Origin: Cyclobacteriaceae bacterium
Lineage (GTDB): Bacteria > Bacteroidota > Bacteroidia > Cytophagales > Cyclobacteriaceae
Length of the DNA stretch: 64,000 bases
Assembly: GCA_019638275.1 (NCBI GenBank)
Contig: JAHBUC010000013.1
Location: 1 to 64,000, forward strand
Reading direction: 5' to 3'
Numbering within the stretch: position 1 is the first letter of the stretch; the number at the start of each line of letters is the position of its first letter. The translations under genes and the position numbers were made by a program. Below, one piece after another: positions 46,690-53,587 of this stretch. The notes beneath the pieces are model-generated. The model made no database searches. It was not told where the DNA came from and saw only the letters and a program-made list of their open reading frames with translations.

Positions 46690-48663
46690 GTGAAAAAGCA
46701 TTTTTTAATCTTTCTACCGGCATTTTTACTGATACTTTCACTTCCTGCTACCGGCCAAAAACCCGACCGGAAGTTTAAAAAAGGTGGTGTTATTCAATTG
46801 AATGATACCCTGACAACCTACAGCCAATCTGACATCTTTAATTTTCCGAACATCAACAAAGTTTCCTTCTATTCGGATAAAAAATCGCTTGAAAAAATTG
46901 CCACCATCCCGAAGGATAATGCCAACCAAACACATTACACCTTGCTTAAGGCGTATGTGCAACAGTTTGGTGTTGAAAACTTTTCGCGCAACACCAACAT
47001 GCTTTGGCAACTGGCTAAACTTTCTGAGAAGTTCGGGCCACCGGGAGAAGCCGTACTACTTTACAAACTGGTTTTAAAACATCACCAGCAGGATATTGAT
47101 GGCCGACAGGTACGACAAGAATATGATAGCCTTACCAAATACCAGAGCGATTACTATGTACCCTTGAAATACTACTACGAATTGGTGGAGTACCGAAAGG
47201 AAATTGATACGCTGCGCCCTCCACAAGGTGTGTTACTCAACATGGGCATAGCAGTAAACTCACCCAAAGCCGATTACGGCCCTACCATTGGAAATGTGGA
47301 TACCGTTCTGCTTTTCACATCCAAACGCAACCTGCATACGCAAACACTGGAAAGAAGATATGATGAAGATTTATTTTACAGCGTGCAGGAGTTTGACATG
47401 TGGATGGATGCTGTTCCCTTCAAAAACATCAACACCAGTTACAACGAAGGCTCGGCTTGCCTAAGCAAAGATGGTAAGCAACTTTTCTTTGCCCGATGTG
47501 ATTCACCCGACTCAAAAGGCAGTTGCGATATTTTTGTGGCCGACCGAAAAGAAGACAACAGTTGGGGGAATGTGCGCAACCTGGGTGATAACATTAATAC
47601 CGTCTTCTGGGATTCACATCCTTCCCTCTCGCACACAGGCGATACGCTTTTCTTTTCATCCGACCGCAAAGGTGGTTTTGGGATGACAGATATTTACTAC
47701 AGTATAAAAGATAAAGATGGAAACTGGCAACCCGCCAAAAACATGGGGCCAATCATCAACACACGCGGTCAGGAAGTGAGCCCGTTCTTTCATCACAAGT
47801 TCAATGTGTTGTATTTCAGTTCAAACGGGCATCCGCTAAACTTCGGAGATTTTGATATTTTTAAAACTTACAAGCAAAACGGCAATTGGGCAGAGCCCAA
47901 AAATGTTGGGCCGTTGGTAAACGGTGCCGGAAGTGAATACTATTTCACCATCGATTCCAAATCAGAAAAACTGTATTACGCCCGGTCAGAAGGTGATGAT
48001 CCGGGCAACCTTGATCTCCACTCATTTCCAGTACCCATGGAAGCCCAACCAGAGGCCGTTGCTACATTGAAAGGATCACTCACCAACAGCCAGACCGGCA
48101 AGCCGATGAGAGGCATTGTTTCCATTATCGATTTGGATAAAGGTGTGGAAGTGGCACCAAAGTTTTTACGGCCCGATGGCACATTTGATTTTAAGCTGAT
48201 CAACAAACGAAATTATTTGTTAATCATTCAAGGTGATGACTTCTTCCGCATCGAAGAAATTTTCTTTATGGATGGTGACATGGAAATCAATAAAGAAACC
48301 GAGCCCATTGAGAGTAAGATTGCGTTTAAATCGTTGGAGTTTGAAAGTAGCAAAGCAGATATATTGCCTTCCATGCATGAAGACTTAAGTAAACTCGGAA
48401 ATTTTATGCTCGATCATCCGCACATTGATTTAACGATCAGTGGGCACACCGATTCAGAGGGCAGACCGGAAGCCAACCTTCGCTTATCACAGGAGCGTGC
48501 CGATGCCATAAAAGCTTACCTCGTGTATGAATATAAAGTTCCTTCATCGCGCATTACCGCCATTGGGTACGGGGGCTCAAAACCCATTGTTGAAGAAAAA
48601 ACGGATGACGACCGCAGGTTAAACCGCAGGGTTGAGTTTGAAATAAAGAATAAAATTGACTAA
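46690..48663 (+). CDS. PorE-like OmpA family protein with PD40 propeller
   Basis: A 657-residue periplasmic protein with a GTG start and a signal peptide (KKHFLIFLPAFLLILSLPATGQ). Domain order is a helical TPR-like part (about 75-180), PD40/WD40-like propeller repeats (about 240-450; DIFVADRKEDNSWGNVRNLG is one unit), a carboxypeptidase-regulatory fold (about 455-525), and a C-terminal OmpA peptidoglycan domain (about 545-657; GHTDSEGRPEANLRLS). This matches PorE of Porphyromonas gingivalis in architecture. Paralogues occur in many Cytophagales, so T9SS function is likely but not certain. It is followed by a mini-protein gene after 9 nt. Confidence 0.82.
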   Translation: MKKHFLIFLPAFLLILSLPATGQKPDRKFKKGGVIQLNDTLTTYSQSDIFNFPNINKVSFYSDKKSLEKIATIPKDNANQTHYTLLKAYVQQFGVENFSRNTNMLWQLAKLSEKFGPPGEAVLLYKLVLKHHQQDIDGRQVRQEYDSLTKYQSDYYVPLKYYYELVEYRKEIDTLRPPQGVLLNMGIAVNSPKADYGPTIGNVDTVLLFTSKRNLHTQTLERRYDEDLFYSVQEFDMWMDAVPFKNINTSYNEGSACLSKDGKQLFFARCDSPDSKGSCDIFVADRKEDNSWGNVRNLGDNINTVFWDSHPSLSHTGDTLFFSSDRKGGFGMTDIYYSIKDKDGNWQPAKNMGPIINTRGQEVSPFFHHKFNVLYFSSNGHPLNFGDFDIFKTYKQNGNWAEPKNVGPLVNGAGSEYYFTIDSKSEKLYYARSEGDDPGNLDLHSFPVPMEAQPEAVATLKGSLTNSQTGKPMRGIVSIIDLDKGVEVAPKFLRPDGTFDFKLINKRNYLLIIQGDDFFRIEEIFFMDGDMEINKETEPIESKIAFKSLEFESSKADILPSMHEDLSKLGNFMLDHPHIDLTISGHTDSEGRPEANLRLSQERADAIKAYLVYEYKVPSSRITAIGYGGSKPIVEEKTDDDRRLNRRVEFEIKNKID

Positions 48664-48672
48664 TTTAAAGTT

Positions 48673-49197
48673 ATGAAAGCACTACATACCCTATTGGTTA
48701 TCTGCTGTTTCGCAACAGCATCAGCACAAGAAATCAATTTAATCACTACCACAACTGAAAAACCCTTGTTTGTGATTAATGGCAAACATACCACGTACGA
48801 TGATTTGAGCCACATTAAACCCAACGACATCGAATCGATTCATGTATTGAAAAATGAAAAAGCCATTGATCAGTTTGGTGAAGCGGGGAAAAACGGTGTA
48901 GTGGTAATTACGCTTAAACATTCCGCCAAGTTGGAGCCAAATGAAGAACTTGAAAATGAAGCCACTTCAATAACATTACGTGAGCTCTCAACTGGTGTTA
49001 AGCCGCTTTTCGTGTTTGATGGTAAAATCATTCAATATGAGGACATTGAAAAGCTTGACAAAAGAAACATTGAGGCCATTGAAGTGCTGAAAGGAGAAAA
49101 AGCTACCGATCAATACGGGGATAAGGGCAAAAATGGTGTGGTTGTGATCAAATCGAAAAAAGCACCGATGAAAATCCGGCAATCGGACAAGGAATAA
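48673..49197 (+). CDS. Secreted mini-protein with two tandem TonB-plug-like motifs
   Basis: A 174-residue protein with a signal peptide (LHTLLVICCFATASAQ). It carries two copies of one unit exactly 80 residues apart: KPLFVINGKHTTYDDL near 30 and KPLFVFDGKIIQYEDI near 110. Each continues NDIESIHVLK or RNIEAIEVLK and ends GKNGVVVI. This resembles the end of the TonB-dependent receptor plug domain, and the tail of M56/BlaR1-type proteins, but no barrel or protease is present. It starts 9 nt after the PorE-like gene, so the two form an operon. Function unknown. Confidence 0.75.
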   Translation: MKALHTLLVICCFATASAQEINLITTTTEKPLFVINGKHTTYDDLSHIKPNDIESIHVLKNEKAIDQFGEAGKNGVVVITLKHSAKLEPNEELENEATSITLRELSTGVKPLFVFDGKIIQYEDIEKLDKRNIEAIEVLKGEKATDQYGDKGKNGVVVIKSKKAPMKIRQSDKE

Positions 49198-49223: not shown

Positions 49224-49256
49224 AAAGCCCCGCATAATGTGGGGCTTTCTGTTTTA
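49224..49256. terminator. Strong bidirectional terminator
   Basis: AAAGCCCC (49224-49231) pairs with GGGGCTTT (49241-49248), with TCTGTTTT following on the plus strand and an A-run preceding. It serves the mini-protein gene and the convergent rseP. Confidence 0.85.
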
Positions 49257-49269
49257 GTTAATCCGTCTA

Positions 49270-50595
49270 TCAGAATAATTTGATAATGTCGTTTGCGAAA
49301 ATCAGTACCATCAGTGTAAGCAAAAACACCATCCCGATTTTCTGTGCGGTCTCCAAAAATTTATCCGATGGTTTTCTTCGTGCTATCATCTCATAGCTTA
49401 AAAACATCACATGTCCGCCATCCAAAGCCGGAATAGGCAACAGGTTCATAAACGCCAACACCAACGAAAGTACTCCGGTCAATGACCAGAAACGTTCCCA
49501 ATCCCACACGGTGCCATACGCCTGCATAATTCCAATCGGCCCGGATAGTGATTCGCGAGGTGATAGCACACCTGAAATAACTTTACCAAATGCCTTTACC
49601 TGAACTACCAATGTGGTGAAGGCACGTTCGGTACCCAACGGAATAGACTCAAGGAAACCATAATTCATTTGTTTCTCAATTGTCTCTTCAAGCATTTTTG
49701 TATCGGCCCTAAAACCAATCGACTTCTGATCTTTAAAAGATTCCTTGAAGGCGATTGTCTGGCCTGCGCGAAGCACACCCAACTGAATAGAATCTCCGGT
49801 GGCTTTCACTGCAGCATTAACTTCATCAATATACGAAACCGGCTGTCCGTTAACTTCCACAATTTTATCTCCTGCCTGCAAACCCATACGATCTGCCAAG
49901 GTCTCCTTGCTAACTTCTGCGATAACCGGAGCTACCCGAAACGAAACAAACGTTCCCACACCCTCGCGTTTATTGAACTTCTGAATGAAATCAGGAGGAA
50001 TATTGATGTCGATTAATTTTCCATCGCGCTCAATGGTGTAGTAGGCGTTATCGGCCAATAATGTTTCAGGTCTGATGATATCCTGCAGGTATTCAAAATC
50101 CTGCCCGTTGATTTTTACAATCTTGTCACCGGTTTTTAACCCGATGCTCTCCCCTACCGGACCAACCTGAAAGCCTCCGTTTTCATTTATAACATCTTTC
50201 AAAAAATAAGTTTCACCAAACGTGTAAGTAACCCCGATAAAAATGAGAATACCCACCACGACATTCACGAAAATTCCACCCAACATCACAATCAGGCGCT
50301 GCCAGGCTGGCTTGGATCGGAACTCCCACGGCTGAGGCTCTTTATTCATGGTTTCCGTATCAAGTGATTCGTCAATCATGCCCGAAATTTTTACGTAGCC
50401 ACCCAATGGGATGGCACTTAAGGCATATTCGGTTTCACCTTTTTTAAAGGAAATAAGTTTTGGCGGAAAGCCAATTGAAAATTGTTCCACCCGCATACCA
50501 AAATATTTGGCCGCCAGCAGGTGACCCATTTCGTGTACAGCTACCAAAATTGAAATGCTCAACAACAATTGAGCAAGCGATACCATCCAATCCAT
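49270..50595 (-). CDS. rseP: RseP-type site-2 protease
   Basis: A 441-residue intramembrane zinc protease. HEMGH (His21-His25) lies in the first helix and the third ligand in NLLPIPALDGGH near residue 397. Two PDZ regions are visible between about 130 and 290 (VGESIGLKTGDKIVKING and ADRMGLQAGDKIVEVNGQ). RseP releases ECF sigma factors by cutting anti-sigma proteins, and two sigma/anti-sigma pairs lie in this window; whether they are clients is inference. Its ATG overlaps the dxr stop by 1 nt (TGATG), a coupling seen in many bacteria. Confidence 0.94.
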   Translation of the reverse strand: MDWMVSLAQLLLSISILVAVHEMGHLLAAKYFGMRVEQFSIGFPPKLISFKKGETEYALSAIPLGGYVKISGMIDESLDTETMNKEPQPWEFRSKPAWQRLIVMLGGIFVNVVVGILIFIGVTYTFGETYFLKDVINENGGFQVGPVGESIGLKTGDKIVKINGQDFEYLQDIIRPETLLADNAYYTIERDGKLIDINIPPDFIQKFNKREGVGTFVSFRVAPVIAEVSKETLADRMGLQAGDKIVEVNGQPVSYIDEVNAAVKATGDSIQLGVLRAGQTIAFKESFKDQKSIGFRADTKMLEETIEKQMNYGFLESIPLGTERAFTTLVVQVKAFGKVISGVLSPRESLSGPIGIMQAYGTVWDWERFWSLTGVLSLVLAFMNLLPIPALDGGHVMFLSYEMIARRKPSDKFLETAQKIGMVFLLTLMVLIFANDIIKLF

Positions 50596-52493: not shown

Positions 52494-53060
52494 ATGGATA
52501 AGGAAATCGAGTTCAACCTGATTGAGCGATCGGCAAAAGGAAATACCGCGGCCTTTCGTGCATTGGTTGAAGCCAATCAGGCATTTGCCATTTCCCTGGC
52601 TTCGCGCTTCGTGCGCGATGTAACCGATGCAGAAGACATTGTGCAGGAGGCCTTTATACGGGTGTGGAAAAACCTGAACCGATATGATTTCAACTTCCGC
52701 TTTAAAACGTGGTTGGGAAAAATTATTACGAACCTATGCCTGGATGCCGGAAAATCAATAAAGCAGCGGCAAACGCAAGCACTTGACCATTCGATAACGC
52801 ATCAGGCTAACGAAAACGCAACCAACGAATTGGAACATGAGGAACTTCGAAAAATCATTTTACACCTGGCGCAACAACTTACACCCAAGCAACAAGCTGT
52901 ATTTGTGCTGCGCGATTTGGAACAACTTGAACCGGACGAGGTGTGCAAAGTGCTTGACATGAGCAACGGCAACATGAAGAGTAACCTGTATTATGCCCGC
53001 GTACACATTAAGGCAGGACTTGAAAAATATTACCAGATAAAACCACAAAATCAAACATAG
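52494..53060 (+). CDS. RNA polymerase sigma factor, ECF family (second)
   Basis: A 188-residue sigma factor. Region 2 includes VRDVTDAEDIVQEAFIRVWKNL (about 40-61) and FKTWLGKIITNLCLDAGK. Region 4 includes LTPKQQAVFVLRDLEQLEPDEVCKVLDMSNGNMKSNLYYARVHIKAGLEKYY, near 128-178. It is followed after 2 nt by a zinc-type anti-sigma gene. The pair and the next lipoprotein form a three-gene operon. It is different in sequence from the sigma factor at 32239, so the two probably respond to different signals. Confidence 0.93.
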   Translation: MDKEIEFNLIERSAKGNTAAFRALVEANQAFAISLASRFVRDVTDAEDIVQEAFIRVWKNLNRYDFNFRFKTWLGKIITNLCLDAGKSIKQRQTQALDHSITHQANENATNELEHEELRKIILHLAQQLTPKQQAVFVLRDLEQLEPDEVCKVLDMSNGNMKSNLYYARVHIKAGLEKYYQIKPQNQT

Positions 53061-53062
53061 TT

Positions 53063-53587
53063 ATGACGTGCACCATGTATGAACAATCGATTTACCTGTG
53101 GGAAGAAATTTCACCGGAGGAAAAAGCAGCGGTAAGCAAGCACGTAGAAGCTTGTCCGAACTGTGCCGAATTGTTTCAGCAAATTCAGGTGATGCAGGAG
53201 CGGGTTACTGAGGTCTCTGCAAAGAAAACTATTGCGCCCAACGCGGCCCAACTTACCTCACGCATTATGCAAGCTGTGCACGAGCAGCAAAGAAGCTCAC
53301 ACGTAAACCTGGCTACACGACTATTTTCTCCTTTCCAGCTGATTCGATATGCATGTGCAACACTCTCTTTGGTTTTAGTGATAAGCTTTGGCCTGGAGTA
53401 TACCCATACAGGAACTCAACAGAAAACACAAATAACAACACTGGAAGAAGGAGTCATTTTGAGCTCAGCAATCATTCGTTCATCTGCAGCAGATCGAAAA
53501 AAACGAAAATCAATTTTTAGTGCCTGCAAAGCACCCTTTACCGATCAATTGGCCTACCGGGAATGTATTAAACAACAATTTCAATAA
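53063..53587 (+). CDS. Zinc-finger anti-sigma factor, membrane protein
   Basis: A 174-residue protein with an N-terminal zinc-binding anti-sigma motif: MTCTMYEQ, then HVEACPNC at residues 27-34 (HX3CX2C). A single transmembrane helix lies near residues 92-111 (YACATLSLVLVISFGLEYT). The periplasmic part contains two Cys near the end. Architecture and the 2-nt gap to the sigma gene support a partner role. A RseP cleavage model is possible but not shown. Confidence 0.85.
   Translation: MTCTMYEQSIYLWEEISPEEKAAVSKHVEACPNCAELFQQIQVMQERVTEVSAKKTIAPNAAQLTSRIMQAVHEQQRSSHVNLATRLFSPFQLIRYACATLSLVLVISFGLEYTHTGTQQKTQITTLEEGVILSSAIIRSSAADRKKRKSIFSACKAPFTDQLAYRECIKQQFQ

Follow-up and report, generated by a model that had tools for sequence, protein, structure and literature searches.

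A small, probably exported protein of two barrel-free half-plug units encoded beside a PD40/OmpA gene in a Cyclobacteriaceae bacterium

Plug domains are usually studied as gates within barrels, and the domain structures of TonB receptors in Bacteroidetes were reportedly the subject of work by Pollet et al. in 2021. Barrel-free half-plugs were not found described in the titles and abstracts among the matches listed from the open-licence PMC literature. A precedent for the action of a detached receptor domain is given by FecA, whose signalling domain, when made separately, competes with intact FecA for FecR (PMC9249621). As this signalling domain is a different domain, only the logic of action in trans carries over. 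The neighbour of the gene considered here loosely resembles two described envelope proteins. PorE has been proposed, in a 2025 paper (PMC12204202), to be a CpoB-TolB-CP-Pal fusion that tethers the outer membrane to peptidoglycan and that might draw force from a TolA/TonB-like protein. Deletion of CHU_0125 impairs outer-membrane integrity (PMC5891637).

The window, that is, the whole stretch of 64,000 nucleotides that was analysed (positions 1 to 64,000 of contig JAHBUC010000013.1), contains a short gene that encodes two plug-like units and no barrel. The features of the locus are as follows, in window coordinates.

46690..48663, + strand: PD40/OmpA-domain gene, 657 aa, loosely PorE/CHU_0125-like, 9 nt upstream of the half-plug gene (Pfam PD40 and OmpA)
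48673..49197, + strand: half-plug gene, 174 aa, ATG start, two half-plug units (ORF and translation; Pfam and NCBIfam; purifying selection in the units of six orthologues)
48673..48726, + strand: predicted signal peptide, cut before Gln19, between A-S-A and Q-E-I (read from sequence)
48760..48927, + strand: half-plug unit 1, residues 30-85 (Pfam, unit comparison, AF2 bbabab at residues 32-81)
48928..48999, + strand: fast-evolving linker, residues 86-109 (low pLDDT, high dN)
49000..49167, + strand: half-plug unit 2, residues 110-165 (Pfam, unit comparison, AF2 bbabab at residues 112-161)
49224..49248, + strand: terminator-like hairpin with an 11-pair stem, between the half-plug and M50 genes (consensus scan)
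49270..50595, - strand: M50/PDZ (RseP-type) protease gene, convergent, boundary of the unit (Pfam Peptidase_M50 3.2e-65, and PDZ)

The original prediction described a plug-like unit occurring twice, 80 residues apart, in a small secreted protein without a barrel. Indeed, the two units are identical at 30 of 56 residues with a start-to-start spacing of 80, and 2000 shuffles of copy 2 gave a mean of 4.3 and a maximum of 13 identities to copy 1. The whole protein matches Pfam Plug (PF07715) in two stretches, with an E-value of 1.4e-10 and 42.1 bits against a cut-off of 23.9; taken singly, copy 1 (19.5 bits) and copy 2 (22.9 bits) each fall just below that cut-off. The NCBIfam SusC/RagA signature TIGR04057 is likewise matched in two stretches (57.0 bits, cut-off 46.2), and the best match among sequences of solved structures is RagA (E 6.5e-6). 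These results and the identity between the copies agree on a repeated plug-like unit. Of the 107 positions of the Plug profile, 41-107 are covered at most (56-107 by copy 1 alone, 46-107 by copy 2 alone), and the cut-off for the full-length SusC/RagA receptor, TIGR04056, is missed (81.7 versus 368.25 bits). Judged from sequence, then, each unit is the C-terminal half of a SusC/RagA-type plug, and a complete plug domain is absent. A C-terminal β barrel is absent too, as predicted: the ORF stops 9 residues beyond unit 2 and is followed by the terminator-like hairpin and the convergent M50 gene. The Pfam, NCBIfam and solved-structure sequence matches, together with the shuffle test, ruled out a chance motif. 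A Pfam match to XPG_N (E 0.0013, below its cut-off) and matches to flap-endonuclease and other PDB sequences (E 0.0015 and weaker) were taken as chance.

At its N terminus, the protein carries a hydrophobic leader that, read by eye, ends in A-S-A followed by Q-E-I. Cleavage by SPI in Bacteroidetes often exposes Gln (PMC5837995). All six orthologues aligned retain an intact leader and two intact units, and A18, Q19, E20 and I21 are invariant among them. Since these residues are invariant while the cysteines of the leader are not, a lipoprotein appears unlikely, and the product is likely to be a soluble protein exported by the Sec/SPI route.

An AF2 model computed from the six orthologues shows two modules of bbabab order (residues 32-81 and 112-161), with a mean pLDDT of 62.2 and a pTM of 0.37. 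With a 14-row alignment, ten-residue blocks within the modules reached pLDDT values of 77-91, the mean rose to 69.1 and the pTM was again 0.37; in both models, pLDDT is below 50 over most of the linker. High block values but a pTM of 0.37 mean that each module is clear and that their mutual arrangement is not. Foldseek placed mostly TonB-receptor plugs at the top, led by those of SusC/RagA. Single units superpose on RagA/SusC plugs over 52-55 columns with an rmsd of 1.3-1.8 Å and a probability of up to 1.00, with the caveat that all E-values are 0.001 or higher and that some top rows span both units with one plug at an rmsd of 15-18 Å. The best VIA-align match is a SusC (Z 5.4, 68 residues, 2.8 Å, model range 51-163); as a Z below 8 may reflect a common arrangement, the plug claim is carried by the sequence evidence. 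Structure prediction, which had been proposed as a check, returned two plug-like modules. The protein has no new fold; it is a known domain in a new arrangement and not an ordinary receptor fragment.

The ORF is a real gene under selection. Pairwise dN/dS over the whole gene lies between 0.08 and 0.23 among the six orthologues. When pairs with saturated dS are excluded from the segment means, dN averages 0.103 against a dS of 1.33 in unit 1 (residues 29-83, 13 of 15 pairs) and 0.123 against 1.32 in unit 2 (residues 109-163, 9 of 15 pairs), and it averages 0.535 in the linker (residues 84-108, 13 of 15 pairs). Change is faster in the half-plug protein than in the upstream PD40/OmpA protein: between the window genome (G000) and G001, their identities are 82% and 97%, respectively. 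With both units intact and constrained in six orthologues, a receptor fragment or pseudogene was set aside as the main reading, although the copy in one genome, G007, has decayed.

The same strand and the 9-nt gap make co-transcription of the PD40/OmpA and half-plug genes plausible. The downstream hairpin is a weak argument for the boundary, as the region contains 7 terminator-like hairpins where shuffling gives a mean of 3.1 (sd 1.8); a convergent M50-like frame was seen by eye downstream in 16 own-genus loci. The upstream gene had been called PorE-like. It has a PD40 propeller and an OmpA domain in common with the PorE of the T9SS, and it scores 208.5 bits against NCBIfam T9SS_PorE (cut-off 600) and 215.4 bits against CHU_0125_OmpA (cut-off 620). 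With T9SS_PorE, a paralogue encoded in the same genome reaches 330.2 bits, more than the neighbour yet still below the cut-off. Neither a TPR nor a carboxypeptidase-regulatory (CP) domain was matched by Pfam in the window neighbour, and hhalign gave a weak CP match (probability 7%, E 0.005) at residues 459-514, a plausible place flanked by the PD40 and OmpA parts. On these scores, the name PorE-like seems only loosely right.

To place the linkage within the genus, 17 genomes were searched, the window's own included, and 16 of them have an orthologue of the PD40/OmpA gene; G010 (81% complete) gave a paralogue-level match only. An intact two-unit gene follows the orthologue in six of the 16 (G000, G001, G004, G009, G015 and G016), and every intact copy found in the genus, six of six, adjoins the PD40/OmpA gene. 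At the same place, G007 has an 82-aa remnant (L021:4495-4740) with unit 1 only and several conserved residues changed. In G008, the PD40/OmpA gene is followed after 4 nt by a different, 142-aa ORF (L041:3476-3901) whose single half-plug-like unit is weak (E 4e-5 with the unit HMM built here, no Pfam match at E 0.01). No half-plug lies behind the orthologue in eight of the 16. The half-plug gene is thus dispensable, being missing in half of the own-genus genomes that have the neighbour and decayed in G007. Across the 99 relatives searched, 79 have a PD40/OmpA orthologue, 63 of these outside the genus. In the 40 regions read from these 63 genomes, two of which are shortened by contig ends (199 and 749 nt), no half-plug unit was found downstream of the orthologue. 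As the PD40/OmpA gene is present in 79 of 99 relatives, mostly without a half-plug neighbour, it does not need the half-plug gene. A scan of genome contigs yielded a single relative. The two genes are truly linked, yet in the regions read the link does not extend beyond one clade. The predicted linkage thus stands as an adjacency within the genus; the PorE identity of the neighbour is not supported, and the pair did not recur in the 40 regions read outside the genus.

The comparisons establish or strongly indicate a real, clade-restricted gene for a probably exported two-domain protein without a barrel, in which the domains are constrained and the linker is free. The search for other single- or multi-copy members returned single- and two-unit barrel-free relatives. 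In a search across the taxonomic class, with at most 8 candidates scored per genome and only those with E ≤ 1e-13 counted, matches were present in at least 25 of 395 genomes. Barrel-free half-plugs were read in several settings. M56/BlaR1-type proteins end in two or three units, and some of them also have TonB_C or carboxypeptidase-regulatory domains. Other frames combine TonB_C domains with half-plugs; one of these (L015) runs into a contig end and may be the tail of an M56 protein. G033 has a single-unit protein (103 aa, in a frame of 117 aa), the T9SS-tailed proteins of G080 and G095 have one unit each, and Spy-like proteins have one unit at the C terminus. Of the units compared, those of M56 tails and one from a frame containing TonB_C reach the highest identity to the window units, 30 of 56.

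The M56/BlaR1-type sensors with half-plug tails (L022, L023, L127, L108) resemble the window protein in their tandem units and differ from it in having a membrane protease domain in the same chain. The Spy/CpxP-like proteins (LTXXQ, Metal_resist) share with it a leader, a barrel-free half-plug and a similar charge; unlike it, they have one unit fused to a Spy-like domain and lie within a run of genes that begins with an ECF sigma gene. This run, ECF sigma gene, small protein and Spy-half-plug gene, was present in all ten Spy-like loci read among those found with the window protein as query (L026, L117-L124, L311). These calls are ORF readings, with Pfam checks of the L120 sigma gene, of the G447 pair described below and of the Spy-like domain in L026 and L120. 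The small second gene encodes 104-112 aa with one hydrophobic stretch and the conserved C-terminal motif W-[E/D]-x-P-[T/S]-x-x-L-[L/I]-x-x-[F/Y]. It has no Pfam family at cut-off in the two examples tested, one from a Spy run and that of G447, and looks like an anti-sigma factor.

Three stand-alone two-unit proteins from other taxonomic families of the class are built like the window protein, with a leader, two units and a length of 176-230 aa, and are unlike it in their neighbours. In G447 (L309:3948-5429), an ECF sigma gene and a gene for a small membrane protein precede the two-unit protein with its leader. In G176 (L288:727-3195), the two-unit gene lies 36 nt after an M56-TonB_C-half-plug gene, and a pair made of an M56 sensor and a soluble half-plug partner is possible. 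In G324 (L308:4626-6046), it lies beside a 297-aa gene with a leader, among genes that, judged by motifs, look like a respiratory complex I cluster.

Among 99 loci found by PF05569 (29 of the same genus, 30 supplied by the search and 40 more picked roughly by rank from the matches listed; 81 of all show an HExxH-type frame), M56 proteins carry the unit in six; some tails are possibly cut by stretch ends, and three of the six carriers (G034, G047, G050) were already query hits. None of the 29 own-genus loci with M56-like proteins (16 above the Pfam cut-off) has the unit. The occurrence in M56 proteins that the original prediction mentioned was seen elsewhere and in none of these own-genus loci. 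Spy-like proteins found by PF13801 alone carry the unit in 7 of 30 loci, three of the genes (G036, G055, G056) being shared with the query-found set. An ECF-like frame is present in six of these seven and the end motif of the small protein in five, by a crude motif within a flank of about 1.5 kb. At E 0.01, the unit is found at 16 places in the window's own genome. Apart from the half-plug gene, these are 13 frames with lengths of 718-1171 aa and single frames of 586 and 264 aa.

The relationship to receptor plugs was assessed with a tree of 59 units, built on 56 columns from hand-picked rows, with a bootstrap that had not settled. Left out were the units of L095, L097, L100, L102, L104, L122, L125 and L126 and of the loci from the later search across the taxonomic class. 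All 23 units labelled SusC, a label taken from the locus and mostly a long frame (that of L133 has only 264 aa) with no barrel search, form one starred group with four others (96/99). By length or tail, these four are non-receptors: the T9SS-tailed proteins of G080 and G095, a 222-aa protein of G018 and a 2029-aa protein of G094. The 12 units of the window family lie outside this group and join units of M56, TonB_C and Spy-like proteins and of the single-unit protein at a weak fork (60/81). Charged residues make up 0.186 of the 23 SusC units, 0.290 of the 12 window-family units and 0.321 of 20 other barrel-free units, which were found with the window protein as query, so that their likeness to it is partly selected. 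At several positions, the Ala, Ile or Ser of SusC units is often replaced by Glu, Asp or Lys in the barrel-free ones. In units found by domain alone, the charged fraction is 0.298 for Spy-like proteins (PF13801, 7 units from 30 loci) and mildly raised, at 0.23, for M56 proteins (PF05569, 7 units). The signature of raised charge thus extends to the Spy-like proteins and only weakly to the M56 proteins. Judged by tree and charge, the window units resemble barrel-free half-plugs more than receptor plugs. In sequence and in predicted fold, the protein matches the C-terminal half of a SusC/RagA plug; it differs from such a receptor in lacking a barrel and the N-terminal plug half, in its two tandem copies and in its greater charge.

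Our tentative preference, which we hold at somewhat less than an even chance, is that the protein is a soluble periplasmic partner or competitor with two sites, acting in trans through its two barrel-free half-plug domains. Each half-plug would be a protein-binding module, and the flexible linker would allow one molecule to hold two sites. It may act at contacts usually made by receptor plug-type domains or, alternatively, at those made by the half-plug tails of envelope sensors. In the window clade, the likeliest place would be the outer-membrane/peptidoglycan anchor encoded just upstream, or TonB-type machinery near it. Its adjacency to the anchor gene and the company of its relatives suggest that it modulates signalling or envelope tethering. 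Plug homology and fold, selection, the adjacency of all six copies, the tree, the charge and the signalling context of the relatives were counted in favour. Counted against were the absence of a sigma or M56 partner next door in the window clade, the respiratory-chain-like surroundings of the G324 gene, at odds with a signalling role, the dispensability of the gene, the mild charge of the M56 units, the few columns, unsettled bootstrap and weak fork of the tree, and the low pTM. The original prediction, that the protein may mimic or dock to a receptor or signalling partner, appears right in kind, as a barrel-free plug relative with a probable partner-binding role, and was too strong on the PorE linkage. 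The idea of docking is indirectly supported by the barrel-free half-plugs that occur in M56 tails or in ECF sigma gene runs.

The units might instead act as a decoy that binds TonB-type proteins or empty SusC barrels and damps uptake, like a free plug. The nearest structures are mainly TonB-receptor plugs with SusC/RagA first, half-plugs share polypeptides with TonB_C domains, and SusC plugs can exit the barrel in vitro (PMC7782687). A decoy is nevertheless unlikely: the protein has only the C-terminal plug half, with at most positions 41-107 of the 107-position profile; inspection of residues 19-30 by eye revealed nothing like a TonB box; and where SusC units have apolar or small residues (Ala, Ile, Ser) the barrel-free ones are often charged, which argues against a seat inside a barrel. 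A closer tie to the neighbour is offered by the possibility that the protein is a dedicated subunit of the PD40/OmpA anchor in the window clade, with no signalling or TonB role. The shared strand and 9-nt gap, the adjacency of all six intact copies and of the G007 remnant, and the weak single-unit ORF at the same place in G008 all fit such a subunit; so does CHU_0125, which gives the neighbour its highest NCBIfam family score and supports outer-membrane integrity (PMC5891637). We consider this rather improbable as well, given that the anchor gene is present in 79 of 99 relatives and followed by a unit in none of the 40 extra-genus regions sampled, and that the half-plug protein changes faster than the anchor (82 versus 97% identity).

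An M56-tail or receptor fragment captured beside the PD40/OmpA gene and drifting with little or no function would explain why the gene is lineage-restricted, decayed in G007 and missing in 8 of 16 genomes. It would also suit the observation that each unit is as close to a unit of an M56 or TonB_C protein as to its sister (30/56). Drift is, in our view, very unlikely, because unit dN is about 0.10-0.12 against a dS of about 1.3, with 0.54 in the linker, and because none of the six aligned orthologues has lost the leader or either unit.

A wider reading, speculative and decidedly unlikely as it stands, would be that the C-terminal plug half is a mobile barrel-free signalling module in Bacteroidota. 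Soluble half-plugs of one or two units would then carry the state of outer-membrane receptors or of the envelope to M56/BlaR1-type sensors and to ECF sigma/anti-sigma pairs, and in the window clade the module would have become attached to an outer-membrane/peptidoglycan anchor. Were this true, the anchor and the half-plug protein together may be equivalent, without a barrel, to the part of a SusC receptor that faces TonB. The half-plugs beside ECF sigma and M56 genes are the more interesting wider pattern, beyond the window locus; given its small size and two intact units, the window protein would be convenient for purification and as bait.

Several further observations were made. The 586-aa frame of the window's own genome (L142:1201-2958, G000:C12) has a weak unit (E 4e-7 with the unit HMM) and no Pfam match at 0.01. 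A 102-aa frame, L126, looks like a broken copy of a Spy-like gene of the same genome. Half-plugs also occur in proteins with a T9SS tail (Por_Secre_tail), which may be surface-exposed: L024:4262-5602 (G090), L114 and L115 (G080, G095), with the tail assigned by Pfam for L024 and L114 and by eye for L115. The G090 protein has two TonB_C stretches as well. Within the window, a zf-HC2 (anti-sigma-like) gene follows an ECF sigma gene at 52494-53587; this pair is 3.3 kb from the half-plug gene, with the M50 gene, a DXP reductoisomerase gene and two short ORFs in between.
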